NCBI RefSeq assembly: GCF_001017435.1
Contig: NZ_CP011371.1
Location: 4,030,001-4,094,000, forward strand
Source of the DNA: Caldimonas brevitalea
GTDB taxonomy: Bacteria; Pseudomonadota; Gammaproteobacteria; Burkholderiales; Burkholderiaceae_C
Direction: 5' to 3'
DNA: 64,000 nucleotides
Shown piece after piece: positions 17,071-35,900 of this stretch. Both the position numbers and the translations under genes were made by a program. The notes beneath the pieces are model-generated. The model was given only the letters and a program-made list of their open reading frames with translations. It was not told the origin of the DNA and did not search any database. How positions within the stretch are numbered: the stretch's first letter is position 1; each line of letters opens with the position of its first letter.

Positions 17071-17913
17071 TTAGAGCCCCGCGATGCGGAGCCGGCATCG
17101 AATCCCGCCGGGCAAGGTCTGCCGCTTGTTGTCCAGTTCCACCAGCACGCCGAAGGTGCCGGCAGCAGAGTCGATCAGACGGTCGACCGTCTTGATGCGG
17201 GTCTGCACCTCACCCTTGAAGGGCGCTTCCGGCACCACCGTCGCCGCACCGCCGGCCTTCACTTGCGGAAACACGCGAAACGGCAGGATCGCCCGCACCA
17301 CCAGCGGGTCGGTCTGGGCGATCTTCAAGATCGGCTTCTTGCCTTCGCCGCTGTCCACCAGCGCACCGGGGTACAGGTATTGGTCGACCACCACGCCGTC
17401 AAACGGGCTGCGCAACACGCGCCGGTTGAGCTGGTCGACCGACTGTCGGTGCTCCAGCTTGGCCAGTTGTGCGTTTTCTTCGGCCGTCTTCAGCTCTGCC
17501 TGCGCGGTCCTCAGTTCCGCTGCGGCGTCGTCCCGCGCCTGGGCCGAGACGAACTCCTCTTCGTACAGGTCTTCGTAGCGGCGCGCCTTCTCGCGTGCCG
17601 CCCGCAGCTTGCTCTGCGCCAACAGCAGGCTGCCTTGCGCGCCGGCACGGAAGCGCGCCGTCTCGGAGGCACTCTGCTCGACGCTCGACTCGATGCTGAC
17701 CAACAGCTGGCCGCGGCGCACGCTCTCGCCGCGCCGCACATGCACCTGCTGCAGCAGCCCGACCACCGGGCTGCGCACCTCCACCACCTGCGCCGGCTCG
17801 ATCATGCAATCGAACTCGCCCGCACTTGCGCTCGCGCGGGCCGGCGTGGCCATCACCGTCGCCATCAGCACCGACAGGGCGGCCAGCGCCCCGCTCACTC
17901 GACACATCTTCAT
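17071..17913 (-). CDS. Periplasmic adaptor (HlyD/RND membrane-fusion-type) protein
   Basis: The 280-residue protein begins with a signal peptide (VSGALAALSVLMATVMATPARASA). It has a split lipoyl/barrel-sandwich domain, AQVVEVRSPVVGLLQQVHVRRGESV and RSPFDGVVVDQYLYPGALV. The halves flank a coiled-coil hairpin of about 90 residues, and a beta-barrel domain follows. This is the classic membrane-fusion layout linking an inner-membrane machine to TolC. Its start overlaps the SecA-like stop (ATGA), and it is the last gene of the operon. It is the third adaptor-type protein encoded here, which is unusual for one export machine. Confidence 0.85.
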   Translation of the reverse strand: MKMCRVSGALAALSVLMATVMATPARASASAGEFDCMIEPAQVVEVRSPVVGLLQQVHVRRGESVRRGQLLVSIESSVEQSASETARFRAGAQGSLLLAQSKLRAAREKARRYEDLYEEEFVSAQARDDAAAELRTAQAELKTAEENAQLAKLEHRQSVDQLNRRVLRSPFDGVVVDQYLYPGALVDSGEGKKPILKIAQTDPLVVRAILPFRVFPQVKAGGAATVVPEAPFKGEVQTRIKTVDRLIDSAAGTFGVLVELDNKRQTLPGGIRCRLRIAGL

Positions 17914-19910
17914 GTCACCCGTCCTGCAAATCCGATCAAACGATTCAAATCGCGGTCTTGCTTCAGCGTCTGGAGGCGGCCTCGCCAGGCTCGGCGCTCC
18001 GCACTGCGCTGCGCCCACGCGACGGCGCATTGCAACAAGGTCCGCTGGGTCCTCCCCCGCAGCGTGGCGAGCAGATGCCGCACCAGTGCCGGCTGAGGCT
18101 CGAACACGCTGTCGTGCGCACAGACGACGGCGCGAGCCGAGCCGGGGTCGCCCTGACGGCCGCTGCGTCCGAACAGCTGCCGGTCGACGCGGGCCGACTC
18201 GTGGAACTCGGTCAGGATCACGTGCAACCCGCCCGCCGTTCGCGCCTCGGCGGTCGGCTTGATGTCGGTGCCCCGACCGGCCATGTTGGTCGCCACCGTG
18301 ATGCGACCCGCGCCACCGGCCTGCCCCACGATCTGCGCTTCGGCCGCGTCCTGGCGTGCATTGAGGACCACGTGCTCGACACCGCGACGCGTGAACTCGG
18401 CACTGATCTGCTCCGACGCTTCCACGCTGCGTGTCCCCACCAGCACCGGTTGCCCGAGGGCGGCCACCCGGCACGCCTCGTCGGCCACCGCCTGCCACTT
18501 CTGCTCGGCAGTGGCCGTGCAGACGGACGGCAGTTGCAGGCGCCGGTTGGCGCGGTTGGGGGGAATGGGCTTGACCCTCAGGCCGTAGACGGCCCACAGC
18601 TCGCGTGCCGACTCGGCCGCCGTGCCGGTCAGCCCGGCCAACAGGAAGTAGCGCCGGAAGAAGCCCTGGAAGGTCATCCGGGCCATGGTCTCGCGGCCCG
18701 AGGTCAGCTCCAGGCCCTCTTTGGCCTCGATCAGCTGGTGCAGCCCCTGCTCCCACGACCGATCGGCCATCACCCGCCCGCTCGACTCGTCGACGATCTG
18801 CACCTTGCCTTCGGCCAGGATGTAATGCTGATCCAGCGAGAACAGGTGCAGCGCGGTCAGCGCCTGCCGCAGCAGCAGCTCGCGCCAGGTGCGGGCCCGC
18901 CACACCGGCCGCACGCCGTCGGGCGGCAGGCCTGCCGCGTCCACCGCGGCGGGCAGCAGCTCGAGTTCGCGCGCCTTGCCGATGCGGAAGTGCACCTCCG
19001 GCTGCAGGCGGCGCGCCGTTTCGATCGCCCATGCCAACAGCGGCGCCTCGTACATCGCCGGCGCTTCGCGCGAAATGATCATGGGGGTGCGCGCCTCGTC
19101 GATCAACACGCTGTCGGCCTCGTCGACGATGGCGAAGTGCAAGGCCGGGATCAGCGGCGCTTGCTGCCCTGCAGCATCGGCCCCCGCTTCCAGCTGGCGC
19201 AACTGGCCCACACGGCTGGGCAGCACCCCGTGGCCGGCCAGCTTGTCTTTCAGGTAGTCGAACACCAACTCTTTGCCGCTGACGTAGCACACCGAGTGGG
19301 CATAGACGGCCCGGCGCTCGTCGGGCTCCATGCCGCCCTTGATGGCGGCGCCGGTGAGCCCGAAGAAGGCGAACAGCGGCATCATCTCTTCACAGTCGCG
19401 CTGCGCCAGGTAGTCGTTGGTGCTGATCACGTGCACCGCAGCGCCGGAGCCCGCCATCGCGGTGGCCGCCAGACCGGCCACCAGTGTCTTGCCCTCGCCC
19501 GTGCGCATCTCGGCCAGCCGGCCCTGGAACAACACGCGGGCACCGGCGAACTGCACCGGGTGAGGCCACATCTTCAAGGTGCGGCGGCTGGCCTCGCCGA
19601 CGCAGGCCAGCACGGCCGCCAGCAGCCGCTCTTCACCGGGGGCCTGCTTCAGGCGCGCCACTTCCAGCCGGTAGCGCTGCACCACGATGTCGTCCGGCTG
19701 GTCCCGCAGCTGCTGCGCGACGCCGGACACCACCTCGGCAAAACGCGCCACCGACCGCGCGCTCTCGCGCCGCGGCGGCAAGTAGCCGGGCAGGCCATGC
19801 AGGAAGTCTTCCACCGCATGGCGGCGCGGCGCGGCGCGTTCGTCGCGTTGTGTGTCGGCCCGCCGGAAACCCGGGCCGGCCAGGGCGCGGACCAAGGTGG
19901 GGTCAAACAT
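17910..19910 (-). CDS. SecA-like translocase ATPase, shortened
   Basis: This 666-residue protein is clearly of the SecA family. It has Walker A AEMRTGEGKTLVAG (Lys141), VDEADSVLIDEARTPMIIS (262-280), the IVDESSGRVM/GLHQLIEAKEGL block, GLTGTA (427-431), and MAGRGTDIK with ESARVDRQLFGRSGRQGD in the second nucleotide-binding half. Compared with ~900-residue housekeeping SecA, the cross-linking region is reduced. Almost everything after the second nucleotide-binding domain is missing, including the wing/two-helix-finger length and the C-terminal Cys-rich zinc tail. It overlaps the M50 gene by 8 bp and the adaptor gene by 4 bp. The ATPase motifs look intact, so it probably drives export of a dedicated substrate, as accessory SecA2 proteins do elsewhere. 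Confidence 0.85.
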   Translation of the reverse strand: MFDPTLVRALAGPGFRRADTQRDERAAPRRHAVEDFLHGLPGYLPPRRESARSVARFAEVVSGVAQQLRDQPDDIVVQRYRLEVARLKQAPGEERLLAAVLACVGEASRRTLKMWPHPVQFAGARVLFQGRLAEMRTGEGKTLVAGLAATAMAGSGAAVHVISTNDYLAQRDCEEMMPLFAFFGLTGAAIKGGMEPDERRAVYAHSVCYVSGKELVFDYLKDKLAGHGVLPSRVGQLRQLEAGADAAGQQAPLIPALHFAIVDEADSVLIDEARTPMIISREAPAMYEAPLLAWAIETARRLQPEVHFRIGKARELELLPAAVDAAGLPPDGVRPVWRARTWRELLLRQALTALHLFSLDQHYILAEGKVQIVDESSGRVMADRSWEQGLHQLIEAKEGLELTSGRETMARMTFQGFFRRYFLLAGLTGTAAESARELWAVYGLRVKPIPPNRANRRLQLPSVCTATAEQKWQAVADEACRVAALGQPVLVGTRSVEASEQISAEFTRRGVEHVVLNARQDAAEAQIVGQAGGAGRITVATNMAGRGTDIKPTAEARTAGGLHVILTEFHESARVDRQLFGRSGRQGDPGSARAVVCAHDSVFEPQPALVRHLLATLRGRTQRTLLQCAVAWAQRSAERRAWRGRLQTLKQDRDLNRLIGFAGRVT

Positions 19911-22065
19911 TCAAGCGCGCCAAGAAAAGCTGCCGCAGCCGCAGCGCCCATTGCCAGCCGAGCGGCGCCCAGCCGAGATCGAAACGCACATAGGCACGGT
20001 CGCCGAACACGGCGGTGGACGAGTGCCGCTCCAGCAGCACTTCGACGTCGAACACCCGGGCCAGACTGCGGGTGCCGCCCTGCTCCGCCGGGTCCACCGC
20101 AATCTCGCCACCTCCGGTGGTGCCGAGCGCGGGCGACACCAGGTCGGTCGCGCCCCCCGGCACCTGGCGCCGCACCGTGCCCGCCACTGAAGTGCGCATG
20201 GCGTGGGCGAAGCGCACGTCCACCCCTTGCACGCGCGAGCGGATCAGGTCCATGTCTTCCTGGGTCACCGCCGTACGAACCAACCGCGACGGCCCGGCGA
20301 CCACATAGCCCAGCACCTCACCTCGGCGCACGTGACGACCCACCAGCTCGGTGGGTGCCGCGGGGGTCCAGCGGCCTGCGGCCTGCGCGCGCACGTTCAG
20401 GGACTCGACCCGCCGCTGCATCTCGTCGAGCCGCGCTTGCTGCATCGCCAGTTCGGCGCGCAAGGCCTGCGCTTTCACCGGGTCGTCGACCTCCGCCTTG
20501 CGCAGTTGTGCCGCGGCGCGCTGCACGGTGCTATCGGCCACCGCATGCTCGGCCTGCAGGTCGAGACTGTCCAGGCTCATCAAGGCTTGCCGCGCCTCGA
20601 CACGCTGGCCGGCCTTGACCGGCGCGGCCGAGACCTGCCCGGGCGCTTCGGCGCGGACGATGGCCTCGTCGGGCAGCCACACCACGGCCTGGTGCACGGA
20701 ATAGAACGGCAAGGGCAGCAGCGCGACCCCCACCACCAGCAGCGCCAGCGCCGTCAGCGTGCGGCGCAGCGCCAGCTCGCGTCGACGCGCCAGGCCGGGG
20801 CTTTCGCGCAGGTGCTTCCAGCCCTTCCACAACGGCATCACGAAGGCCGTCCAGGCGCCGAACAGCGCCATCACCACGCCGAGGATCAGGTATTCGGAAG
20901 CGATGAACAGCACCAGGCCGATCGACACGCTAAGGCGATAGAACGGCGCCACCGCCCCGTAGAGCGCCAGCAGCCAGCGCTCGCCGGTCGACTCGACGGG
21001 CGGCTGCGCATCGGGCGAGTTGAAGGCATGGCGGTCGATCAGATAGGCCCAATATTGGGTGGCCCGCTGCGCCAGGTTGGGAACCTCCAACAGGTCGCAG
21101 AAGATGAAATAGCCGTCGTAGCGCATCAAGGGGTTGCCGTTGACGACCACCGTTGAGACGCCTGTGATCAGCAACACGTTGAAGGCGATGGCGCTGACCA
21201 GCCCCGACTCGCTCAACAGCCACACGTAGACGGCCAATGCGCCCAGCAGCAGCTCGGCCAGGATGCCGGCCGCGGCGACCGCGGCGCGGGCCCACTTGGA
21301 CGGGAAGCGATACGACGACGAGGCGTCCACATACGGCACCGGCGTGAACACCACGAACATCAGCCCGATCTCGCGCACCGTGCCGCCCCAGGCCTTGACC
21401 GCCATGCCATGCGCCCACTCGTGCACCGCTTTGACGAGCGGGTAGGTGAACCACAGCAGCGCGACGTTGCTGGCCGACAGCACGCGGTCCGACAGGTTCT
21501 CGGTCAGCGCGCTCCAGTGTTGCGCGGCGAGCACGGCCGCCGGTGTCACGATCAGCAGCCACAACGCCGCCATGCCCCAGGAGAACAGCGCACGGGCCAT
21601 GCCGGCATGGCGCTCGAACCAGGCGTCGGGGTACAGCAGCGGCAGCTTGAGGCTCATCGGGTTGAGCCACGACTGCTTGAGCTTGGCGCGTGTCTGCCGC
21701 TTGTAGCGGTCGAACACCTCGGCGGCGTCGGGCGCCACCTGGGTCTGCAGCAGGTCGTTGGCGTACAGCGACGACAGCAGCTGCACCAGCTCGTGCTGCG
21801 AGATGGCGGCCTGGTCGGCGCCGCCCTCGGGGTTCACCTGCTCGCAGGCGGCGTCCCACACCGCGTCCAGGTCGCGCGTGCCGTCCAGCAGTTGCAGCAC
21901 CCGCCACACCGAAGGCGTGACACGATGGAAGCGCTGCGTGACCGGGTCGGCCAACAACACCCAGGGCCGCCCGCGCAGCCGCCGGTGCAGCGGCTGCACC
22001 CCTTCGCGCAGCCGGGGGCGCAGGAAGCGCACGGCGTGCCAGTGCTCCGACAACAGCGTCTGCAT
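19903..22065 (-). CDS. PqqD-like + M50 site-2 protease + HlyD fusion protein
   Basis: This 720-residue inner-membrane protein joins three modules. Residues ~30-120 (LLADPVTQRFHRVTPSVWRVLQLL) resemble a PqqD-like winged helix, a fold that binds leader peptides. Several membrane helices follow, with the M50 zinc motif HEWAH (215-219) and the second metal-site block NGNPLMRYDGY (Asp317), both intact. After a further group of helices, the C-terminal ~270 residues hold a lipoyl-like barrel (VRAEAPGQVSAAPVKAGQRVEARQ) with coiled coil, as in HlyD adaptors. It could bind, clip and pass an exported protein. Its stop lies inside the SecA-like gene start. Confidence 0.85.
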   Translation of the reverse strand: MQTLLSEHWHAVRFLRPRLREGVQPLHRRLRGRPWVLLADPVTQRFHRVTPSVWRVLQLLDGTRDLDAVWDAACEQVNPEGGADQAAISQHELVQLLSSLYANDLLQTQVAPDAAEVFDRYKRQTRAKLKQSWLNPMSLKLPLLYPDAWFERHAGMARALFSWGMAALWLLIVTPAAVLAAQHWSALTENLSDRVLSASNVALLWFTYPLVKAVHEWAHGMAVKAWGGTVREIGLMFVVFTPVPYVDASSSYRFPSKWARAAVAAAGILAELLLGALAVYVWLLSESGLVSAIAFNVLLITGVSTVVVNGNPLMRYDGYFIFCDLLEVPNLAQRATQYWAYLIDRHAFNSPDAQPPVESTGERWLLALYGAVAPFYRLSVSIGLVLFIASEYLILGVVMALFGAWTAFVMPLWKGWKHLRESPGLARRRELALRRTLTALALLVVGVALLPLPFYSVHQAVVWLPDEAIVRAEAPGQVSAAPVKAGQRVEARQALMSLDSLDLQAEHAVADSTVQRAAAQLRKAEVDDPVKAQALRAELAMQQARLDEMQRRVESLNVRAQAAGRWTPAAPTELVGRHVRRGEVLGYVVAGPSRLVRTAVTQEDMDLIRSRVQGVDVRFAHAMRTSVAGTVRRQVPGGATDLVSPALGTTGGGEIAVDPAEQGGTRSLARVFDVEVLLERHSSTAVFGDRAYVRFDLGWAPLGWQWALRLRQLFLARLNV

Positions 22066-22076
22066 CGCTCAGCGCC

Positions 22077-23936
22077 TCACCACCACCAGCTCCACAGCTT
22101 CAGCCGCAGCCAGTCCAGCGTGGAGCGGGTCCACACGGTGAGCAGGTTGGCTTCACCGACGGTGATCTTGCCAACGCCCTGCATGCCGGGGCTGAGCGAC
22201 GGCGCTTGGGCGTCCCATGCGGCCTCGACCCGAAAGCCGTTGTTGCCGTCCTGCACGCTGGCCGTCGCGGTCACCGTGGCCACCTTGAAGGCATAGCTGT
22301 GCTGCGGCTGACCGGTGAGGCGCAGGGCGCCCAACTGCCCTGCCCGCACGCGGGCGATGTCCTTGTCCTGCACATGCAGCACAACCCGGAAACCGTCGGC
22401 CGCGGCGATCTCGAACATCTCTTTGCCCGTCTCGACCGGCCCACCGATCTGCTGCACCCAGTCGCCGCTGACCACCAGGCCGTCCATCGGTGCGGTCAGT
22501 GTGGCGCGCGCCAGCTTGGCCTCGACCAGCGCCAGCTGCGCCTCGGCCTGGCGCACTTCGGCCGAGGCCAACGCGACGGCCGGCGCGTCGTGCTCGGCCA
22601 TCGCCTGGCGCAGCTTGCCGGCGGCCTGGTCGCGTTCGCTCTGGTATTTGTTCTGCTCGAGCTTCAGGTCACGCTCGTCCAGCCGCGCCAGCACCTGGCC
22701 CTGGCGCACCCGGTCGCCGGGACGCACCAGTGCCTCGCGGACGAAACCGTCGAACGGCGACGTGACCAGCTGGCGCACGCGACCTTCGATGACGAGGTTG
22801 GCGGTGACACGGTCCGGCACCGGCCACAACAGCAGCGCGGCGAGCGCCAGCGTGATGGCCCCGGCCGCCGCTTTCCAGGTCAGGTGGCCGGGCTCGCGCA
22901 GCTTGCGCCAGGCGCCGCGGGACGCGTCGACGATGTGACGCGGCAGCGAGCGGCCGGCCTCGCGCCAATGGCGCAGCAGGGGCTCGCCGAGCCCGGCGCT
23001 GGCGCGCAGCACGGCCATCGCCGGTGCCGGCCACTCGCCACCGTCGCAGCGGGCGACCAGCACGGCCGAAGGTTCGCCGTTGTCCAGCAGCGGCAGCGCC
23101 CACCAGGGGCCTTGCTGCAGCTCGCGCATCTCGACCGCGGCGCGCAAGGCGATCTCGCTGCTCTCTTGCACTGCTGGCGAGGCTTTTTCGGCCCAGGCGG
23201 TGTCGGCGCCGACCCACCAATGCGGCACGCCGCGGCGCACCTCGAACAACGAGAGCGACAGCGAGAACCCCGCGGGCGCCTCGCTGCGCGCCCAGGCCGC
23301 GCTGCGATTGACCCACTCCTGCGCGGCAGCCCGCGCCTCGGTCTGCGAGGCCACGTGGCCGAGCAGCTCGAGCAGGCGTGCCGAATGGAGGTGCTTCGAG
23401 AAGGTCTGCGCCGACAGCGTGAGTTGCAACCAGCCGAGGGACAACAGCACCAGCTGCACGGTCCGCTCGTTGTGCGGGGGCGGCAGGCAGATGCCGATGG
23501 TGCCCGACGCGCCGCTGGGCAGCTGCAAACGGGTGGCCATCAACAGCTCTTGGCCGGTGGCGCCGGCCACTTTGACGAGGGCCACCGGGTTGTCGGGCGT
23601 GACACGTTCACGCAAGGCCGGCCAGGCCGCGACGAGTGCGGCCTCGGCGGGGGGGAAATCTTCGGTCCAAGCGGCATCGTCGCTGTGGAAGGCGGCCGCG
23701 CGGCACGGCATGCCGGCGGCGGCGAGGCGGGCGCGCCAGGCGGCTAGCAGGCGGGCCAGCTCGCTCGGCGGCGCGGCCGGCGGGGGCGCGTCAACGGGGG
23801 GCGCGGTTGGGCCAGCTTGCTGGGTGGTGGGGCCGGTCGGCGGCGCCGTGGGGCCGGAGGTTGCGGCGGTGTCACGCGGCGGCGTGTCGCTTGCCGTCGG
23901 CTGGGGGGCCTGGGCGGCTTGGGTTGCGGGGTTCAC
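22077..23936 (-). CDS. GAF-like/HlyD-family inner-membrane adaptor
   Basis: The 619-residue protein opens with a Pro/Thr-rich ~60-residue segment. A cytoplasmic region with GAF-like character follows (two halves around RLQLPSGASGTIGICLPPP and WALPLLDNGEPSAVLVARCD). There is one membrane helix near residue 360 (AGAITLALAALLLWPV), then a HlyD-type lipoyl and coiled-coil region (TSPFDGFVREALVRPGDRVRQ, TAPMDGLVVSGDWV). The start is GTG, overlapping the TolC-gene stop as GTGA. The M50 fusion gene starts 11 bp after its stop. It likely forms the inner-membrane/periplasm adaptor of the machine. Confidence 0.8.
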   Translation of the reverse strand: MNPATQAAQAPQPTASDTPPRDTAATSGPTAPPTGPTTQQAGPTAPPVDAPPPAAPPSELARLLAAWRARLAAAGMPCRAAAFHSDDAAWTEDFPPAEAALVAAWPALRERVTPDNPVALVKVAGATGQELLMATRLQLPSGASGTIGICLPPPHNERTVQLVLLSLGWLQLTLSAQTFSKHLHSARLLELLGHVASQTEARAAAQEWVNRSAAWARSEAPAGFSLSLSLFEVRRGVPHWWVGADTAWAEKASPAVQESSEIALRAAVEMRELQQGPWWALPLLDNGEPSAVLVARCDGGEWPAPAMAVLRASAGLGEPLLRHWREAGRSLPRHIVDASRGAWRKLREPGHLTWKAAAGAITLALAALLLWPVPDRVTANLVIEGRVRQLVTSPFDGFVREALVRPGDRVRQGQVLARLDERDLKLEQNKYQSERDQAAGKLRQAMAEHDAPAVALASAEVRQAEAQLALVEAKLARATLTAPMDGLVVSGDWVQQIGGPVETGKEMFEIAAADGFRVVLHVQDKDIARVRAGQLGALRLTGQPQHSYAFKVATVTATASVQDGNNGFRVEAAWDAQAPSLSPGMQGVGKITVGEANLLTVWTRSTLDWLRLKLWSWWW

Positions 23937-25348
23937 TGGCGCCCCTCTTTGGCACGCACGGGGGCGTCGGGCGGGGTGAGCAACGGCACCACCACCAGCA
24001 GCCCGTCCAGCTCAGCCAGATCGATTTCGCTGAGGCGACCGGCCATCGCCTTGAGCTTCAGGTACTGGGTCCACGCGTCGTACCGGGCACGCGACAGATC
24101 GCGCCGCGCTTCGAAGAGGCGCGTCTGTGCTTCCAGCACTTCGCTGTTGACTCGCATGCCCACCGCGTAGCCGCGCCGGTTGGCGCGCACCGCCGTCTCG
24201 TTGGACTGCACTGCGGCCTCGAAACCACGCGCCTGGCTGGCGGCGGACAGCGTGGCCGAGAAGGCTTCGCGCAGGTCCAGGCCCAGTTGCCGGCGGGCCG
24301 CGTCGACGTCGCTGCGCGCCTTGTCGCGCAGCGCTGCGGCTTCGCGCACCTTGGCATGGGTCGCGAAGCTCGCGAACAGCGGAATGTTGACGTTGACGCT
24401 GACCTGCGTGTGGTGGCCCTTACGGCCAAACAGCGTGGTGGGCGAGCCGTTGTCCTTGTTGCGCATGTAGCTGTAGTTCAAGTCGGCCGTCGGCGCGTGG
24501 CCGTACCACGCCTTGCGCACCTCGGCGTCGCCGGCCTCGAGTGCCTGGCGTGCCGCTTCGAGCTGGGCGTTGTAGGCCTGCGCATCGGCGATCCAGGCGG
24601 GCAGCGACAGCGGCTCCACGGCCGGCAGCCGTTCCCCGGTCAGGCCACGTTCCACCAGGCCGTCGACCCGCTGGCCCACCAACTCGTCGACGATCTGCTG
24701 CCGCAGGTCGAGTTCATACGACGCGGCGACCAGCTGGGCCGCGACCGTGTCGGCTTTGGCTTGCGCTTCGCGCACGTCGGTGACCGACACCGTGCCGACC
24801 TGGAAGCTGCGTTGCGCGGAGGCGAGTTGTTCGCTGGTGGCAACACGTTGGGCTTGCAGGAAGACCACTTCATCACGCGCCTTCAGCACGCCGAAGCAGG
24901 CCTCGACGAGCCGCTGCATCGCGTCGGTCTCGGCCTGCTGCAACTGCGCCTGGGCTTGTTCGAGCTGCGCGTGAGCCTGAGCGAGGCTGGGGTAGAGCGC
25001 GTCGCGTTTCAGCGGCTGGGTGAGTTGGGCGCCGTACTGCTTCGACTCGAGGTTGCGCTCGTCGTACTCTGGCGCTTCGCGGTAGTTGCCTCTGGACTTG
25101 GTGCCGGTGAGCGCGACGGTCGGCCCGAAGGCGGCGCGGGCTTGCACCACACGCTGCTCGGCGGCGCGGACCTGGGCTTGCGCGCCGGCGACGGCGGGGT
25201 CAACGGCAAGCGCCAGGCGGTAGAGCTGCGGCAACGGCTGCGCGACGACCGCGACGGGCAGCACCCACAGCAACGCTGCGCACAGACGTGCGATGCCGGC
25301 ACGAGTTGCCCCTCGGTGCAACGCGGCCAGCTGGCCACAAATCCCCAC
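23933..25348 (-). CDS. TolC-family outer-membrane channel
   Basis: The 471-residue protein has a signal peptide (ARLCAALLWVLPVAVVAQ) and two long helical halves typical of TolC/OEP proteins, for example SLAQAHAQLEQAQAQLQQAE and the second repeat ending NRRGYAVGMRVNSEVLEAQ. It should form the outer-membrane and periplasmic tunnel. The start is GTG, supported by a good ribosome site (GAGGGA, six bases upstream on the minus strand). It is the first gene of the five-gene operon, placed like the TolC partner of type I secretion systems, but no ABC transporter accompanies it. Confidence 0.88.
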   Translation of the reverse strand: MGICGQLAALHRGATRAGIARLCAALLWVLPVAVVAQPLPQLYRLALAVDPAVAGAQAQVRAAEQRVVQARAAFGPTVALTGTKSRGNYREAPEYDERNLESKQYGAQLTQPLKRDALYPSLAQAHAQLEQAQAQLQQAETDAMQRLVEACFGVLKARDEVVFLQAQRVATSEQLASAQRSFQVGTVSVTDVREAQAKADTVAAQLVAASYELDLRQQIVDELVGQRVDGLVERGLTGERLPAVEPLSLPAWIADAQAYNAQLEAARQALEAGDAEVRKAWYGHAPTADLNYSYMRNKDNGSPTTLFGRKGHHTQVSVNVNIPLFASFATHAKVREAAALRDKARSDVDAARRQLGLDLREAFSATLSAASQARGFEAAVQSNETAVRANRRGYAVGMRVNSEVLEAQTRLFEARRDLSRARYDAWTQYLKLKAMAGRLSEIDLAELDGLLVVVPLLTPPDAPVRAKEGRQ

Positions 25349-26798: not shown

Positions 26799-28397
26799 TT
26801 ATGCCGACTGCCCTTTGGGAGCGCAAGACGCAAACGATACTTTTGAGAGGTTGAGCCTGTAGGAGTTCGGTGTGGCATAGATGCCGATTGCAGAAGCTGC
26901 GACGCCGTCCTTTACTGGAAGTAATGCCTCCTTGCGGTGTGAGAATGCGATCCCATCATGGAGCTCCGCACCTTCGTAATGGCAATTCTCTCCCGGCATT
27001 CCGCGTTCTGGTGCGGTCAATGTGCTGTCGACGAGGACAGACACAACGCGCTCTCCGTCTACCGCAATTGACGCCTCGATCTCTTGCACATATCCATCGC
27101 TTCGCACTCGCTGCAAGGAGCAGGAATGCCAGACGGCGTCTGCTCCAAGGGTAGAGCCGCTCAGAGCGTTCAAGTGGCCCCTCTTCGTTCCGGGCCTCGT
27201 CGCGCCAAAGCGAACAAAGTCGCAGTCCTGCTGCCCATCCTGGCGCTCATTGATAACCTTACTCACCAATAGATCGATGGTCAAAAGCACCCGTCTCCCA
27301 TTCGCATCTACCGAAAAGGACACCTTGTCTTTGCCGACATAACCAAAATCTGGAACGAGCCTCCAATACGGGTAGCTACCGCTCACCTTTACCACAGCCC
27401 CATGCTGAGGACCAGACACCACCTCAACTTGATCGGCGATCCTCTTAAAATCATCAGGCGAAATAATATATTCACCTTTACCTGGATCGTACTTGTACCC
27501 CAGGGCGCCGGCTACTGCCTGCACCACCATTAGCGAATTCACTCCCTCAGCGTCAACTTCACTCTCGACATCCTGGCAAATTTTGCTTTCAAAGCGTTCA
27601 CTCACGCCCAGCTCAGAAACCTGCGTGGCCACAGCCCCGAAAGCCGTCTGCCAAAGCACAAGATCGTAGCGGTCCCCGTTGTATTTGACTCTGGCCGCCA
27701 CTCCCTTCTTCTTGTCGTTTCGTCGAGTCGCAAGCCTTAGATCGGCGAAGCCGTTGGTTGAAGTCGGCTCCACCGAGATCACGACGTTGGCTTCTACGTG
27801 AGGAATATCCTCTCCGCCGCAGCGATTGCCGTCTCCATAGCGCCAATGGGACATGGTTTCAGTGAGGATCGGCCTGATAGTCCGCCCTTCGACAATGTAG
27901 AGGGTGAGTTCGCCGTCAAAGCCTCCCTCGTATTGACATCGGTCACGGAAGGTGTGGAGGCGAAGTGCGAAGGCTCTCGTGGTTTTCGAAAGGGTGTATC
28001 GCGCCGTGTCGAGCTTCAAGGAATAGCTCGTGACTTCGCTCGCCCCGCCCTCGGCTATGGCACCTCTATGGGACGCAATGACCCTATCGCCTCGGGCGTC
28101 GACTATCGCCAGCAGCAGCTCTTTCTGGTACTCAACCCCGCCATCGTAGGCGAATGCGGCAATAGTTCTTGAGCTGTTCGTCGGCCAAGATTTGCAGATG
28201 CTAGCCACCAAACGGCCGCCGGTCTCAACACTTGGATGGATGAAGTGGCCAAGATGGAAGTGTTCCCCCACGCGCTTCACCATTGCGTCGTTGCAGCGGT
28301 TCGTGTCGTCCTCAGACTGGGGCTGCGCGTGGGCAGTTTGATGTGGCGCCAAGGCGATGAATAAGATCGCGCTGAAGATTGTCCTGAGAACCGGCAT
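26799..28397 (-). CDS. Secreted protein with a cadherin-like/tandem-95-type Ig module
   Basis: The 532-residue protein has a signal peptide (RTIFSAILFIALAPHQTAHA) from the ATG at 28397. Its first two thirds are not recognised but contain paired cysteines. Around residues 322-388 a module reads VVSGPQHGAVVKVSG then LVPDFGYVGKDKVSFSVDANG. This is the same pattern (GP-x-HG ... P-x-F-x-G-x-D-x-F) as the tandem-95 repeats of the giant protein downstream in the window. Local base composition is lower in GC than the flanking operons, with AT-rich stretches near 27440-27480, which hints at different ancestry. It could be an accessory surface protein. Confidence 0.6.
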   Translation of the reverse strand: MPVLRTIFSAILFIALAPHQTAHAQPQSEDDTNRCNDAMVKRVGEHFHLGHFIHPSVETGGRLVASICKSWPTNSSRTIAAFAYDGGVEYQKELLLAIVDARGDRVIASHRGAIAEGGASEVTSYSLKLDTARYTLSKTTRAFALRLHTFRDRCQYEGGFDGELTLYIVEGRTIRPILTETMSHWRYGDGNRCGGEDIPHVEANVVISVEPTSTNGFADLRLATRRNDKKKGVAARVKYNGDRYDLVLWQTAFGAVATQVSELGVSERFESKICQDVESEVDAEGVNSLMVVQAVAGALGYKYDPGKGEYIISPDDFKRIADQVEVVSGPQHGAVVKVSGSYPYWRLVPDFGYVGKDKVSFSVDANGRRVLLTIDLLVSKVINERQDGQQDCDFVRFGATRPGTKRGHLNALSGSTLGADAVWHSCSLQRVRSDGYVQEIEASIAVDGERVVSVLVDSTLTAPERGMPGENCHYEGAELHDGIAFSHRKEALLPVKDGVAASAIGIYATPNSYRLNLSKVSFASCAPKGQSA

Positions 28398-28513
28398 ACG
28401 TCTCGTCCATTGGAATGCGTCCGCCCCGCCAAGTTGAACGGACGCTCGCGATTTACGAATCATCGATCATCGTGCCGCGTCCGCGTGGACGCAGAGACCT
28501 GCTCGGGCTGCGG

Positions 28514-29098
28514 TCAGCGGATCTTGGACCTCTCCGCGTCCGACAGTCGTACGGTTCTTCCGCCCCGGTCCGTCGTTTTGCGTAGACCTAAACCTTCCAA
28601 CAACAGCTTGAGTTCCACAATCCAGAAGGCCGCAACGAGCATCCCGTGAGCCGACTTTCGCGCCAGGCTCACTTGGCCCAAGGTGACGGCGTTGACGAAC
28701 AAGTCCAGGACGACCTTGCCCATCAACAGAGGCGGCAGATTGAGCGTAACCTCGAGGGCGATGAGCATGATCGCGGCCCCAGCGAGCAAACGCTCGATCG
28801 GGCCGAATGCCGAAGGCGCCGGCGTAGAGGACGTGGTGAAGTGGCGCCACAGGTGACGGGCGCTCAGCACGACGGCGACCGCGCTGAGCACCTCCAACGG
28901 CCCGCCTCGACGGCATGTCACCGGACAGACCGCCCCACCGCCGGGCACACCGATGTCTTGCAACGCATTCACCAGCTCGAAGGGGAGGACGTTCATCAGC
29001 CAGATCGAAGGGCTGGGAGCGAGGTACCAGTCCAACGCGGTCACCAGGGTCGTGACGAGAATGACAAGTTGGAATGTGGCGAATAGGAATCGTGTCAT
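28514..29098 (-). CDS. Integral membrane protein of unknown function
   Basis: The 194-residue protein has about four hydrophobic helices: FQLVILVTTLVTALDW near the N-terminus, EVLSAVAVVLSA, LLAGAAIMLIALEVTLNL, and MLVAAFWIVELKLLL. A basic C-terminal tail follows. The ATG at 29098 directly precedes the first helix. No known family was recognised; the pair PVTC in the first loop is the only Cys feature. It lies between the putative lipoprotein and the cadherin-module protein on the same strand. Confidence 0.5.
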   Translation of the reverse strand: MTRFLFATFQLVILVTTLVTALDWYLAPSPSIWLMNVLPFELVNALQDIGVPGGGAVCPVTCRRGGPLEVLSAVAVVLSARHLWRHFTTSSTPAPSAFGPIERLLAGAAIMLIALEVTLNLPPLLMGKVVLDLFVNAVTLGQVSLARKSAHGMLVAAFWIVELKLLLEGLGLRKTTDRGGRTVRLSDAERSKIR

Positions 29099-29170
29099 TG
29101 GTACGCACCCTGCTTGTGCAGACTGTCGTGGCGAGAGTCGGAGTGGTGGTCGTTGTAGTGCCGCGGCGGT

Positions 29171-29713
29171 TCACTCCGCAGGCAGGCATCCGCGCTCGGA
29201 GGCATAAGGCGGATCGTTCTTCGGATCGGCCAGCTCGGGCTCGTACCGAAACTCCATAAAAGTTCGAGTGGGGTCCCCCGAGCTTCCCCTCATTGGAAGT
29301 TCGATGTCCGCGGGGGTGCCAGCTCGATACCAGAAATAGCCACTGCCAATCACAGGCGCTCCGTAGATCTCGGCCGCCGCGTGGCACAAGGCGTTGAAAT
29401 GCGGCCCGTGGAAATGCACGAACATCCGGCTGAGACGATGCTGGTTGCTGATGTAGAACACCAGCCGCGCAGACCTCGCGTTGAACGGTCCGAGCGCCCG
29501 ACGGTGAGGCGGGATGTCACACTGGACCTCCTTCGAAATCGAACTGGTCTCCTTGCAGTTGATTGCGCCGGCGCCCTTGGCATCCTGCAGCGACATCCCG
29601 GGATAGAACCCATTGAATGCCGCCCAGCTGCCGTCCGTCGGCTTGGCAGGACAGGCGGTCAGCGCCAACGCAGCCACGACCACCGACCCCAGCTTGGCGC
29701 CACCGCTACTCAT
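29171..29713 (-). CDS. Putative lipoprotein of unknown function
   Basis: From the ATG at 29713 the 180-residue protein begins with a lipoprotein signal, VVVAALALTAC, where the lipobox Cys is residue 21. The mature part contains two further Cys and reads FNGFYPGMSLQDAKGAGAINC, a start reminiscent of small periplasmic lipoproteins. Function unknown. It is the first gene downstream of the giant gene, with a ~240-bp gap that shows no clear terminator. Confidence 0.55.
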   Translation of the reverse strand: MSSGGAKLGSVVVAALALTACPAKPTDGSWAAFNGFYPGMSLQDAKGAGAINCKETSSISKEVQCDIPPHRRALGPFNARSARLVFYISNQHRLSRMFVHFHGPHFNALCHAAAEIYGAPVIGSGYFWYRAGTPADIELPMRGSSGDPTRTFMEFRYEPELADPKNDPPYASERGCLPAE

Positions 29714-29951: not shown

Positions 29952-32900
29952 TCATCCCACCAAAGCCTCCCAGTTCGCCCGGGCAAACTGCTCCAGCTCC
30001 TGCAGCCACTCCTCATTGAGGGCGCTGCTGCGCTCGCGCTCGGCGGCCTCCTCTTCCTCCCACGTACGAGGCGTGCTGAGTGCCAGCGAGATGGTCAGTG
30101 CCCCGGTTTCGTCCACCATCGGTCCCACCACGATAGGCGTTGCAGACACTGTGCCTGTCGCCGCGGCGGTCGTCGTGCTGCTCGTCCCGGCCGTCAGCAC
30201 GACGTACGGGTTGACGCCGACCGGGGTGTCCACCGGCGTGCCGCCGAGCACGCAGACCTGCAAGCTCTGCGTGACGCTGGTGCTCGAGCCGTTCGACGCT
30301 TCAGTGCTGGTCGCCCTCACCTGCAATGACAGCAGGCCAGGGCATCCCGCCGGCGGCGTCAGGCTCAGCAGGGCCAGGTTCCAGCCACTGAGGTCGACGC
30401 TGCCCGCACTCGTGAGCGTGACCGACCGGGTGCCGTCCGACACCGTCGCCCCCGCCGGCAAGCCGAGCAGTTCCACCTTCAGCGTCTCAGACCCGTCGGT
30501 GTCCGTCAGGCTCGCATTGACGATCGGCAATGCGATCGCCGTGCCCGCTAGGCCATACACCAGGTGGTTGCCGGTCGGCAGCGTCTCGACGATGCGGATG
30601 TCGTCGATCATGGCGCCGCGCCCATGGTTCGCCGTCGGTCCCCCTTCGATCCGGATGCTGATCTCACGCTCGCAGCCGTTGCCGGTGAACTGGAAGCTCA
30701 GCGCGCGCCAGTTCAGCGCCGTGGCGCCGCTGGTATTGGCATAGCTGCCCACCAGCTGGCCGTCGACATAAATGCCGACCCGCGTGTTGGCTTCGGGCAG
30801 GCCCAGAGCCCCGGCGTAGTCGAAGCTGAGCGTGTAGATCGCACCGGCGATCGTCTGCACGTCGCGCTCGATCCCCAGCGTCTGGTGCCCTTCACCGATA
30901 CCGTTGTTCAGCTCCAGCCAGTTGCGGCCATTGCCGGCCGCCGCCTGCACCGTCACGAACTGGCCCGCGGCATTGCGCATCTGGTCGCCGCTGCTCCAGA
31001 TCTCAAACGCCGTCTGCTTGCCGAACTCGGCATGCATCACACGCCAGCCTTCCAGTGTGCTCCACGGCGCCCCGGCCACGATGGTGGCGTTGCGGTTGCG
31101 ATTGGCCACGCTCTCCCAGCTGGTGCTGAGCATCTCGCGGCTGACGTCGACGTCGCGTGCCGTCAGGGTCAACACCGGGGCGTCGGCCACGGCAGCGACT
31201 TGCACGGCCAACTGCTTCGAGACGGTGGCGCGGCCGCCGGTGGCCGTCTCGATCGCGGTGGCTTGCACCTGCAGCTGGAGCACGCCGCTGAAGTTGGCCG
31301 GCGGTTGCAGCGCCAAGGTGGCCGTGTTCCAACCCGACAGGTTGGCGACCCGCGCCGCCTCCGTGACGGTGAAGCTGCGCACGCCGTCGCTCAGCACGCT
31401 GCCGATGGGCAGGCCCATCATCGTGAGCACCATCGTCTCGGAGCCGTCGTTGTCGGCCAGCGCGGCGGCGATGCCTTGCAGCGGAATGCGGCTGTCTTCG
31501 CTGCCGCGGTTGAGCTGCGTGGTCTCGCTCAGCGCGATGTCGTCGATCATCGTGCCGCGGCCGCCCTCGTGCAGACGGGTGGCCTCGCTGACGATGCGCA
31601 GCCGCTGCGCCCCACCGGTACCGGTGAAGCTGTAGCTGAGCGTGCGCCAGTCGAGCGAGCTGCTCGGGCTGGTCGGGCTCACCGAGGCCAGCTTCACGCC
31701 GTCGAGGTAGACGGCGATGCGGGTGTAGTCCGAGCCGAAGCCCAGGCGTCCTGCGACGTCGAAGCTCAGCGTGTAGCTGGCGCCAGCGACCGTCTCCACG
31801 GTGCGCTCGATGCCCAAGGTCTGGTGCTGGGCGCCGCCGGCGTTGTTCAGCTCCAGCCACTGGTTGCCGTTGCCCTCGCCAGCCCGCACGGTGCGCAGGT
31901 TGTTGTAGGCGTCGGCCATCCGGTCGCCGGTGTTCCAGACCTCGAAACCGTCCTGGCCGCCGCAAGACGGGTCCGGATCGGTGATCAAGCGCCACCCGTC
32001 GAAGACGGACTGCTGCACCAGCGTCGACTGGGAGTCGACGTTGGGCGCACCTTCCCAACCGGTGCGGAACAGCTCGCGGGTGCTGCTGTTGGCGCCCGTG
32101 AAGTTCAGCGTCGGTGCATCGGCGAGCGCGGTGATGTCGAGGTTCACGAAGACCTCGGCGGTGTCCACCAGGCCGTCGCCGGCCACATAGCCCAGGCGGG
32201 CATAGTGGCTGCGGCGGTTGCCGTAGCCGGCGTGGACATACCCCTCGCCGCCGGAGGCGTTGGCTTCAGGCACGAAGTGCAACACACCGGCTGTGATCTC
32301 GGCCTGGGTGAAGGTCTCGCCCGCCACCACGTCGAGCCATGTGCCGTCGGCGGTATGCCGCTGCAACACACCTTCGGCCGGCAGCGTCGTGATGCGGATC
32401 GCCATGGCGTCACCGTCGACATCGACCACATCGAAGTCGCTCCAGGCCAGCACCAGCGCCTGGTCTTCCTCGCCGATGGCCGTGCTGTCGAACGCGACCG
32501 CGGCGTCGTTGACCGCCTCGATGTTGACGCTGACGCTGGCCACCGCCGAGGCGGCGGGCCCGTCGCTGACGCGCAGGCTGAACGTGTCGACGCCGTAGAA
32601 GTTGGCGTTGGGCACGTAGGTGTAGCTGCCGTCAGGATGGATCGTGACGGTGCCGTGGGCCGGGCCCTCGACCAGTTCGAGCGTCAGCACGTCGCCGTCG
32701 ACGTCGGTTGCTTGGGCCAGTGCATCGGCGGTCACACTGCCGTCCTCGGCCATCTGCAGCGTGCTGTCGGCCAAGGTCGGTGCGTCGTTGACGGCGGCCA
32801 CGGTGATCGACAGGGTTGCCTCGTTGGAGCCGAGTTCGCCATCGCTCAAACGGAAGCGGATGGCATCGGTGCCGTGGTAGTTGGCATGCGGCACGTAGAC

Positions 32901-35900
32901 ATAGCGGCCATCGTCCCCACGCACCAAGCTGCCATGTGCCGGGCCGTCAACGATCACGGCGGTGAGGGCCGCGCTGCTGTCGACGTCCAGGCCGTAGGCG
33001 GCGAAGTCGATGTGGAGCGTGCCGTCTTCGTCGAGGGCAAGGGCAGCATCGCGGGCCACAGGGGCGTCGTTGACCGACTGCACATTCAGGGTCACCGTGG
33101 CCACGTTCGAGTCCACCGTGCCGTCGCCGACGCGGTAGGTGAAGCTGTCGGTGCCATTGAAGTCGGCCGCCGGGGTGTAGCTGAAGCTGCCGTCGGCGTT
33201 GACCGTCAAAAGGCCGTGCGCCGCGCCGGCGATCACCGTCGCTGTCAACGTGTCACCGTCAACATCGCTCGCACCCGCCAACAGGTCGAGCCGCAGCACG
33301 CCGTCTTCGGCCATCGCCAACTGCGCGTCGGCCAGCACCGGGGCATCGTTCACCGCGGTGACCTCGAAGCTGAAGGTGGCTTCGTTCGAGACGAGCTCAC
33401 CGTCGGTCAGCGCGAAGCGCAGGCGGTCACTGCCGTTGAAGTCGGGCGCCGGCGTGTAGGTGTAGGTGCCGTCGCCGTTGTCCATCAGCGTGCCGTGGGA
33501 CGGGCCCGCCACCACCAGGCTCTGCAATTCGGCGTCGGCGTCGACGTCGAAGCCGAGACTGCGCAGGTCGATCACCACGCTGCCGTCTTCGGTCACCATG
33601 GCGCTGCCGTCTTGTGCCACCGGTGCGTCGTTCACCGCGGTCACGCCCAGCGTGACGGTGGCGAGAGTCGACGCGCCGGCACCGTCGTCGACACGGTAGG
33701 TGAAGCTGTCGCTACCGTTGAAGTCGGCCACCGGCGTGTAGGTGAAGCTGCCGTCGGCGTTGACGCTCAGGCTGCCGTGCGCCGGGCCGGCGACAACGGC
33801 TGCCGTCAGGGCGTCCCCGTCGACGTCGGTCGCGCCTGCAAGCGGGTCGATGTGCAGCGCACCGTCTTCGGACACCGTCAGATGACGGCCCGCGACCACC
33901 GGGGCGTCGTTCACCGGCACCACCGTCAAGGTGACGGTCGCCAACTCGGAGCCACCCTGCCCGTCGCTGACGCGGTAGGTGAAGCTGTCGCTGCCGTTGA
34001 AGTCGGCCACCGGCGTGTAGCTGAAGCTACCGTCGGCGTTGACACTCACGCTGCCGTGCGCCGGGCCGGCGACGATGGCCGCGGCCAGTGCGTCACCGTC
34101 CACGTCGCTGCTGCCTGCCAGCGGATCGACACGCAGCACCCCATCTTCGTCCACCGTCATGTGGCTGTCGGCGACCACCGGGGCATCGTTCACCGCGGTG
34201 ACGTCGAAGCTGAACGTCGCCTCGTTCGAGGTCAGTTCGCCATCGCTGAGCGTGAAGCGCACACTGTCTCGGCCCTTGAAGTTGGGCGCGGGCGTGTAGG
34301 TGAAGGTGCCGTCACCGTTGTCCACCAGGGTGCCGTGCGACGGGCCGGCGACCACGACGGGCTGGAGCTGAGCGCCCTCCACGTCGAGGCCCAAGGCACG
34401 CAGGTCGACCACCACCGCCCCGTCTTCGTCCAGTGCGGCCCGGCCGTCTTGGGCGACCGGCGCATCGTTGACACCCGTCACGGTCAGTGTGACCGTCGCG
34501 AGATTGGACGCCTCAGTGCCATCGCTGACACGGTAGGTGAAGCTGTCGCTGCCCTCGAAGTCGGCCGTCGGCGTGTAGGTGAAGCTGCCGTCGGTGTTGA
34601 GGCTCAGGCTGCCGTGCGCGGGGCCGGCAACGACGTCCGCACTCAAGGCGTCGCCATCGACGTCGGTCACGCCGGCAAGCGGGTCGATGCGCAGCACACC
34701 GTCTTCGGACACTGTCAGGTGTCCGTCGGCGATCACCGGTGCGTCGTTCACCGCCGTCACGTGGAACGTGAAGGTCGCCTCGTTCGACACGAGGTCGCCG
34801 TCCGTCAACGCAAAGCGCAGGCTGTCGCGGCCGTAGAAATTCGGCGCGGGCGTGTAGGTGAACGTGCCGTCGCCGTGGTTCAACAGCGTGCCGTGCAACG
34901 GTCCGGTCAGGACCACGGCCTGCAACACCAGGGTGTCCACGTCGAGGCCCAGGGTGCGCAGGTCGATCACGGCGCTGCCGTCCTCGGCCAGCGTGGCACT
35001 GCCGTCCTGGGCGATCGGCGCATCGTTCACCGGCGAGACGGTCAGCGTAACCGTCGCCAGTGACGACTCGCTCTGCCCATCGCTGACGCGATAGGTGAAG
35101 CTGTCCTCCCCGTGGTAGTCGGCGTGGGCCGAGTAGCTGAAGCTGCCATCGGCGTTGAGCGTCAGGCTGCCATGCCGCGGCCCGCTGACCACCACCGGCG
35201 CCAGCACGTCTGCGTCCACGTCCTGCGCTCCGGCCAACAGGTCGACGCGCAAGCTTCCGTCCTCGGCCAGCGTGGCGGCCTGGTCTGCCACCACCGGAGC
35301 GTCGTTCACCGGCATCACGGTCAGCCACACCGTCGCCACCTGCGACTCGCCCTGGCCATCGCTGATGCGATAGGTGAAGCTGTCGCTGCCGTGGAAGTCC
35401 GGAGCCGGCGTGTAGGTGTAGCGACCCTCCGCGTCGGTGGTCAGCACACCGTGGGCCGGAGCCGCGACGATCACCGGGGCCAGCGAATCGCCGTCCACGT
35501 CGATCGCACCGGCCACCAGATCGAGGTGCACGCTACCGTCCTCCTCGACACTGGAGGTAATGTCTTGCACCACCGGCAGGTCGTTGACCGGTCGCACGGT
35601 CATCCGGACCGTCGCGATGGTCGACTCCAACTGGCCGTCGCTGACGCGGTAGCTGAAGCTGTCTTCACCGTGGAAGTCGGCTTGCGGCTGGTAGTCGAAG
35701 CTGCCGTCCGCCCGCAGCGTCAGGCTGCCGTGTGCCGGCGGCGTGACGAGGTGCGCGGTCAACGCGTTACCTTCCGCATCGCTCGCTTTTGCCAGCGGGT
35801 CGAATTGCGACACGCCATCCTCGCCGAGCTCGACGTGTTGCTGCTGCTGCAGCACCGGCGCCGTGTTCAGCGATCCGAGCAGTTGGACGTCCTTGAGCTT

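Follow-up and report, generated by a model that had tools for sequence, protein, structure and literature searches.

The accessory SecA2 systems of Gram-positive bacteria are linked to large surface proteins. In the tripartite exporters described so far, the component that receives the energy is an ABC, RND or MFS transporter (PMC8277102). The LEPR-XLL motif has been reported in a Vibrio protein of about 8000 amino acids (aa) with RTX and serralysin domains, for which the accessible portion of the paper gives no export route (PMC10868602), and we found none for the LEPR-XLL family in the literature searched. Here we discuss five genes in a 64,000-nucleotide stretch of the Caldimonas brevitalea genome (assembly GCF_001017435.1, contig NZ_CP011371.1, positions 4,030,001 to 4,094,000; this whole stretch is the window below). 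They encode a TolC channel, three HlyD adaptors of which one is fused to an M50 membrane protease, and a SecA-like ATPase. The gene set is real, conserved and tightly linked to giant LEPR-XLL proteins. Judged by its sequences it can be assigned to no secretion system known to us, falling outside both type I and SecA2 systems, and we think it probable that the operon is a dedicated apparatus for maturation and export of one giant LEPR-XLL protein.

The five genes are on the minus strand (window 17071-25348), with TolC first, followed by an HlyD adaptor, M50-HlyD, SecA-like and a second HlyD. The TolC-type outer-membrane channel (23933-25348, 471 aa, GTG start) matches Pfam OEP at 9e-51 and scores 247 bits with NCBIfam TIGR01844, for which the cut-off is 225. 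It is followed by an HlyD-type adaptor of 619 aa (22077-23936; Pfam HlyD_3 2e-17), in which a long N-terminal part, read as cytosolic, precedes one hydrophobic stretch (residues 352-370 by hydropathy) and then the HlyD part; GAF models match this N-terminal part in 13 to 14 of 19 family members and give no match in the window copy. Next are the 720-aa fusion of a PqqD-like part, an M50 membrane protease and HlyD (19903-22065; Pfam Peptidase_M50 5e-7 and HlyD_3 2e-5), the SecA-like ATPase of 666 aa (17910-19910; Pfam SecA_DEAD 2e-80, P-loop_SecA 3e-45, SecA_PP_bind 4e-17), and a second HlyD-type periplasmic adaptor of 280 aa with a hydrophobic segment at its N-terminus (17071-17913; Pfam HlyD_D23 1e-12). 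The gaps between them are -4 (TolC/adaptor), +11 (adaptor/M50), -8 (M50/SecA) and -4 (SecA/HlyD) nucleotides. The preliminary description of this DNA, made from the sequence alone, had placed the five genes in this way and had noted three overlaps; open reading frames (ORFs) and Pfam agree with the placing, and the overlaps are there, at 4, 8 and 4 nucleotides. No ABC protein is found by Pfam among the five genes, and there is no RND or MFS transporter among them.

In the fusion protein the HExxH zinc motif of the M50 domain is HEWAH (residues 215-219, window 21409-21423, minus strand). H215, E216 and H219 are invariant in 22 sequences together with D317, and the protein thus has both the HExxH and the conserved aspartate by which an M50 site-2 protease is recognised. 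The HExxH is also kept in all of ten further M50-HlyD proteins, some of them from loci that have no SecA-like gene, and a second M50 motif (pattern NxNPx(3-5)DG[YF]) is matched in five of the ten. Hydropathy gives eight partly overlapping hydrophobic stretches at residues 163-454, C-terminal to the PqqD-like part.

With regard to conservation, a search of one-genome-per-species contigs with the SecA-like protein gave 27 loci. They come from Burkholderiales, from Acinetobacter and other gammaproteobacteria, and from Desulfuromonas, Desulfobacteraceae and more bins of deltaproteobacteria. In every one of the 27 the genes for the GAF-type adaptor, M50-HlyD and SecA-like follow each other in that order on the same strand, so the operon is conserved as a unit, the lack of which would have told against the preliminary description. 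The second HlyD gene is next in 25 of the 27, one of the misses (L015) being a locus that ends inside the SecA-like gene, and TolC is within the locus in 12. On plasmids a search with M50-HlyD gave 74 records, and the 13 that were opened include 11 loci of this strong kind and two (L043, L044) of a sister kind that is discussed below. SecA-like is present in 10 of the 11 strong plasmid loci, the exception being L036, and six of the 11 have a giant of 4033-12737 aa annotated directly upstream. For L039, L040, L041, L042 and L052 the annotation has no giant directly upstream, and two of these are entirely unannotated there. The spread is patchy, the C. brevitalea genome being the only carrier among 9 genomes of its genus.

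Co-occurrence, which the preliminary description had put forward as a check, was examined in 250 genomes of the host order (M50-HlyD at E 1e-60) and in 299 genomes of the phylum. In the order sample M50-HlyD and LEPR-XLL are each found in 28 genomes, with both in 24, either one alone in four, and neither in 218 (Fisher 2e-25). In the phylum sample 47 genomes have M50-HlyD at E 1e-90, with a score of at least 550 bits in 35 of these, and 39 have LEPR-XLL; if M50-HlyD is counted only from 550 bits upwards, both are present in 30 genomes, M50-HlyD only in 5, LEPR-XLL only in 9 and neither in 255 (Fisher 4e-28). The set is thus not rare, as the counts of 28/250 and 35/299 indicate. The 12 phylum genomes with weaker M50-HlyD include none with LEPR-XLL and two with SecA-like (G282, G409). 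SecA-like itself is in 27 genomes of the order sample, all with M50-HlyD, when matches above 630 bits are counted, with at most four candidates scored per genome, so that some copies could have escaped the count. It leaves out four single SecA genes (G018, G109, G185, G246; 634-641 bits), and the three of these that were read are of 886-890 aa and end in a zinc tail. For SecA-like and LEPR-XLL the numbers with both, SecA-like only, LEPR-XLL only and neither are 24, 3, 4 and 219 in the order sample, and 27, 6, 12 and 254 in the phylum sample (E 1e-178, 33 genomes). The Fisher values are all from 2e-23 to 2e-35, with relatedness of the genomes ignored.

The linkage is also physical. In the order sample 34 of 38 SecA-like matches are directly downstream of M50-HlyD, the other four being on contigs with no M50 match, and for 17 of 43 M50 matches there is a LEPR-XLL start at most 60 kb away on the same contig. 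In the five M50 genomes that are in one to three contigs this holds for 6/6 M50 loci. The four genomes of the order that have M50-HlyD alone are draft assemblies in 310 to 580 contigs. It could be argued that the operon is not a protein exporter, and that an M50-regulated efflux or peptide-maturation cluster lies by chance beside a giant adhesin gene: the NCBIfam model closest to the M50 part is that for the protease of a ribosomally synthesised and post-translationally modified peptide (RiPP), a daptide, and HlyD and TolC are also used in small-molecule efflux. However the genome-level association in two samples, the adjacency in near-complete genomes, and the giants directly upstream on plasmids with an N-terminal motif common to them make such a coincidence most improbable.

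The giant neighbour of the preliminary description is indeed present, and is larger than was seen there, since the gene starts beyond the window at genome 4100068 and has a total span of 40117 nucleotides, ending 4603 nucleotides from TolC. The window holds, on the minus strand, a C-terminal frame (29952-43319, 4455 codons stop to stop, of which 4437 were scanned) with Big_9/cadherin-like repeats, and a middle frame (43267-63999, 6910 aa in the window, of which 5000 were scanned for domains) with CARDB repeats. The frames were read as separate pieces. The LEPR-XLL domain is outside the window at C1:4099844-4099906, where NF012209 gives 26.1 bits, above its cut-off of 17, for residues 55-75 of the scanned piece. 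The RTX pattern has no strict match and one loose match in the 6910 and 4437 aa from the window, and no match in the 2023-aa N-terminal piece, in agreement with the earlier view that the giant lacks RTX repeats. Ten long ORFs adjoining the operon were chosen for comparison and all have extracellular repeat or adhesin-type domains. The longest open frame with the LEPR-XLL motif, in genome G309 (motif at C115:112865-112924), is of 19427 aa.

The strongest links between giant and machine are marks on the two ends of the giants, which the preliminary description overlooked. At the N-terminus the motif [LFMI]EPRxLLxAD is present in 6/6 plasmid giants (FEPRVLLSAD, LEPRLLLSAD, LEPRVLLNAD, LEPRLLLAAD, MEPRVLLSAD and IEPRILLSAD), in one of them upstream of the annotated start, and in L031 the operon-adjoining ORF begins LESRQLFSGG and leads into DUF4347. 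Nine giant N-termini were compared for the stretch ahead of the motif: its net charge is +1 to +12, and no Sec-type signal was seen in any of the nine, the most hydrophobic 11 residues reaching 1.45 at most, as against 2.33 and 2.66 for the signal peptides of HlyD and TolC of this operon, which served as controls.

At the other end a tail, W[LM]xxLExxAxxxWxxL, closes the giants of the Burkholderiales-Acinetobacter branch, and in the window the tail, written there as W[LMI]xxLExxAxxxWxxL, is at 29961-30008 (minus strand), two residues ahead of the stop. In 2.53 million six-frame residues the pattern occurs 12 times, in each case at most 10 residues from the end of an operon-adjoining ORF. The pattern was derived from ten of these tails, so that L009 and L013 are the independent finds. 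The tail is present in 12/12 branch loci that reach that far (L006, L011 and L014 start within or just before the operon), and over eight sequences its mean identity is 0.53, compared with 0.25 in the preceding 18 residues.

The SecA-like protein was aligned to the host's own SecA. The two nucleotide-binding domains are retained, as is the preprotein cross-linking domain; the protein ends some 30 residues inside the long scaffold helix, and the two-helix finger, wing and zinc tail are missing. The label of a shortened SecA given earlier is thus correct. No SecA wing/scaffold Pfam model is found in the protein, and PF07516, the model for that part, is on none of the best 120 of about 7980 matches in each of two listings. 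The shortening is general in the family, the 36 members collected being of 638-677 aa. Walker A is GEGKT in the window protein (residues 138-142, 19485-19499, minus strand), and GEGK[ST] is retained in 34 of the 36; it is invariant, as are the other ATPase motifs, across 21 sequences with at least 35% identity to the first. With a SecA DEAD motor, a cross-linking domain and intact ATPase motifs the protein can be placed in the SecA superfamily, and among solved structures its best relative is a bacterial SecA, the alignment with which covers residues 52-628.

It is however neither a housekeeping SecA nor a SecA2 by the models for these, as TIGR00963 gives 483 bits with a cut-off of 800, and the SecA2 models TIGR03714, TIGR04221, TIGR04397 and NF012136 give 396, 406, 439 and 315 bits with cut-offs of 930, 725, 1085 and 1100. 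The host genome has one further SecA-motor match, in an open frame of 939 aa (C1:5451941-5453140), and the SecA-like gene is thus not the only secA of the genome; had it been, this would have gone against the preliminary description. That description had also called for a tree that included SecA1 and SecA2. In our tree of 53 rows, made by a quick method with six long rows and with Gram-positive SecA2 sequences outside it, the SecA-like and SecA1 rows are on opposite sides of one branch with support of 100. A recent duplication of the host secA was considered as the origin of the SecA-like gene and rejected on the basis of this split.

We suggest the following pathway. In the cytosol the PqqD-like domain of M50-HlyD would bind the giant at its N-terminus, where a mostly basic stretch leads up to the LEPRxLLSAD-type motif, and the M50 protease would cut the giant near this motif. 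The SecA-like ATPase would grip the unfolded chain by its cross-linking domain and drive it into the part of the machine in the membrane. From there a periplasmic duct formed by the three HlyD adaptors would lead to TolC, and the giant, with its cadherin-, Ig- and CARDB-type repeats, would finish on or outside the cell. We infer the recognition by PqqD, the site of cleavage, the motor role of SecA-like and the passage through TolC. An exporter role for the gene set is likely, and for SecA-like as the motor we put the chances only a little better than even. If exporter, motor and leader are taken jointly the operon may represent a secretion class free of both SecYEG and ABC, in which a finger-less SecA feeds unfolded chains into PqqD-M50-HlyD and on through HlyD and TolC. 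In the same joint reading, LEPR-XLL would behave as a RiPP leader does, being recognised by PqqD and then cleaved away, and the chains would range in length from several thousand residues to perhaps 19,000. This combined proposal we offer tentatively, as a possibility that we would not at present favour.

Several observations weigh against the pathway as given or against the linkage on which it is built. The PqqD-like domain reported in the preliminary description is found as PF05402 in 15/22 relatives at E 0.1 or better, and stands to that extent, but there is no score in the window's own protein. The window's giant has one frame break, its two frames overlapping at 43267-43319; the break is likely in or close to six consecutive G within that overlap (43294-43299, minus strand), and may be a sequencing error or real. 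Desulfo-type and alphaproteobacterial giants do not have the C-terminal tail described above and have other endings. As to co-occurrence, LEPR-XLL is present in 9/264 phylum genomes without strong M50-HlyD, 6/33 SecA-like genomes of the phylum have no LEPR-XLL match, and 9/43 M50 matches of the order sample have no adjoining SecA-like match, two of these being contig-edge fragments.

The remaining points concern SecA-like in particular. The gene is absent between M50-HlyD and HlyD in the Thalassospira plasmid L036, beside an ORF with the LEPR motif, and has no match on the remainder of that plasmid (the search was of the plasmid only, with the chromosome outside it). Five phylum genomes with strong M50-HlyD have no SecA-like match at the cut-off; in G317 the gene is cut by a contig end, in G524 it is in two pieces, and G251 and G259 have diverged frames, so that only G429 lacks the gene in place. 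There too an ORF with the LEPR motif is adjacent, the motif having been found by pattern and being absent from the NF012209 matches. The frames in G251 and G259 are intact (665 and 675 aa) and are without Walker A or motif VI. These apparent pseudo-ATPases (L066:3949-5943 on the minus strand; L067:9967-11991 on the plus strand) are kept in the operon at normal length and place.

There is also the sister set, M50-HlyD and two adaptors without SecA (L043, L044, L070, L071, L072), in which M50-HlyD scores 274-317 bits and no type I ABC match was found in any of the five loci. Its neighbours include an Azospirillum DUF4347 protein with LEPRFMFDAA and an ORF in G015 with LEPRFMFDGA. The loci in which LEPRxMFD proteins adjoin the set are L044 and L071, and no LEPRxMFD motif was found in the sequence stretch examined for the sister-type loci L070, L072, L073 and L043. 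It seems that the shared core is M50-HlyD, two more adaptors and a LEPR-type N-terminus, with SecA-like added in the LEPRxLL branch. Because the sister set and the loci without SecA-like mark SecA-like as an added part, we are more confident of the exporter role than of the motor role.

SecA-like could therefore be a chaperone, targeting factor or gate and not the engine, with energy from housekeeping Sec or the membrane potential and a core of adaptor, M50-HlyD, HlyD and TolC. LEPR-type giants beside loci that lack the gene (L036, L065), the two frames that have lost their ATPase motifs and keep their place, and the SecA-less sister set beside LEPRxMFD or DUF4347 giants are all in line with this, as is the loss of the two-helix finger, which in SecA pushes chains into SecY. 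In contrast the conservation of the ATPase motifs in nearly all SecA-like proteins, the presence of SecA-like in 27/28 M50 genomes of the order sample, and the nine giant N-termini without a Sec-type signal ahead of the motif tell against it, and we think the alternative unlikely, though it deserves attention. The preliminary description had proposed an undescribed export machine with a SecA-like energy source. The unit is conserved across Pseudomonadota and into Desulfuromonas and Desulfobacteraceae, has no ABC exporter as a part of it and has the giant adjacent, and to this extent the proposal is sustained; export of the giant by it, and ATP hydrolysis by SecA-like as the energy source, are putative, and the loci without SecA-like, the frames without ATPase motifs and the sister set tell against an obligatory motor role.

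The other possible source of energy is an ABC exporter of the classical type I kind, with its gene elsewhere in the genome, which would carry the giant while the operon only processed it or supplied adaptors. The host genome has two type I ABC proteins above the TIGR03375 cut-off (C1:3376482 and C1:2101354), which are possible outside energy sources, RTX repeats are present in 2/10 of the operon-adjoining ORFs (L022, L027), and the conserved C-terminal tail would also fit such a route. However distances of 0.67 and 1.95 Mb separate the host ABC genes from the operon, and the window's giant has no strict RTX repeat. Nor is an ABC exporter conserved beside the operon, as the preliminary description had maintained for this locus: an ABC protein like those of type I secretion is in 1/62 stretches scanned, four further stretches matching only at the ATPase end. 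The single case, in Methylibium rhizosphaerae (L012:16763-18997, plus strand), is about 4 kb behind the operon. We regard transport of the giant by a distant ABC exporter as improbable.

Some neighbouring genes should be mentioned. Between the giant and TolC there are two ORFs without a Pfam match, of 554 aa (window 26799-28463, minus strand) and 306 aa (28467-29387, minus strand), and the first has what by eye is a signal-peptide-like start. DUF3467, a protein of about 100 aa, precedes the operon in alphaproteobacterial and Desulfo-type loci (L020, L022-L024, L026, L033-L036, L038, L040), and in 5/6 of the plasmid loci with an annotated giant it is between giant and operon. It has no match in the host genome, which has an ordinary SecB, and DUF3467 itself gave no match to Pfam or to solved structures. 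The suggestion that it is a SecB-like chaperone is unsupported, as profile comparison with 24 SecB sequences gave a probability of 0.2 and three unrelated controls gave 0.1-0.2, the alignment being shallow. Three loci from gammaproteobacteria (L029:4975-5832, L030:369-1274, L031:4955-5821) have a gene of 285-301 codons that overlaps the gene for the GAF-type adaptor or directly adjoins it, and HDOD-type signalling is only a guess for its function.

If our interpretation is correct, it would give a function to the LEPR-XLL mark of very long bacterial proteins and a possible exit route for them, and to our knowledge this would be the first case of a SecA-derived ATPase in a tripartite envelope exporter. 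The finger-less SecA would also be a test of how large a part of SecA the movement of a chain requires. No such system is described in the literature that we searched, which had most subscription journals and all preprints outside it and included the accessible parts of PMC8277102, PMC10868602, PMC3482391 and PMC5861075, and the statement in the preliminary description that no named secretion type has this composition is consistent with that result.

In the case of type I secretion (HlyB-HlyD-TolC, and the giant adhesins of LapA/SiiE type) the likeness is in the HlyD adaptors, TolC, the giant repeat-rich neighbour and, in one branch, the conserved C-terminal tail. It differs in that the unit here has a SecA-derived ATPase and an M50 protease in place of ABC, three adaptors of which one is fused to the protease and one has a large N-terminal domain, and a LEPR-XLL mark at the N-terminus of the giant. 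The accessory Sec systems of Gram-positive bacteria are alike in having a second SecA-family ATPase beside the housekeeping SecA, but the SecA2 models give only 315-439 bits where 725-1100 are needed, the C-terminal third of SecA is absent, and the partners are HlyD and TolC. The daptide protease of NF041824 is a membrane HExxH protease, and its model aligns with residues 17-419 of M50-HlyD; however the scores for it and for the epipeptide protease NF058609, 163 and 24 bits, are below the cut-offs of 300 and 225, the M50 protein here is fused to HlyD, and its partner is a giant protein and not a peptide. The sister sets of Azospirillum and G015 share M50-HlyD, two adaptors and a giant with a LEPR-type N-terminus, and differ in having no SecA-like gene. 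With regard to the LEPR-XLL proteins (NF012209), a family defined by its motif, the giant of this locus is itself a member.

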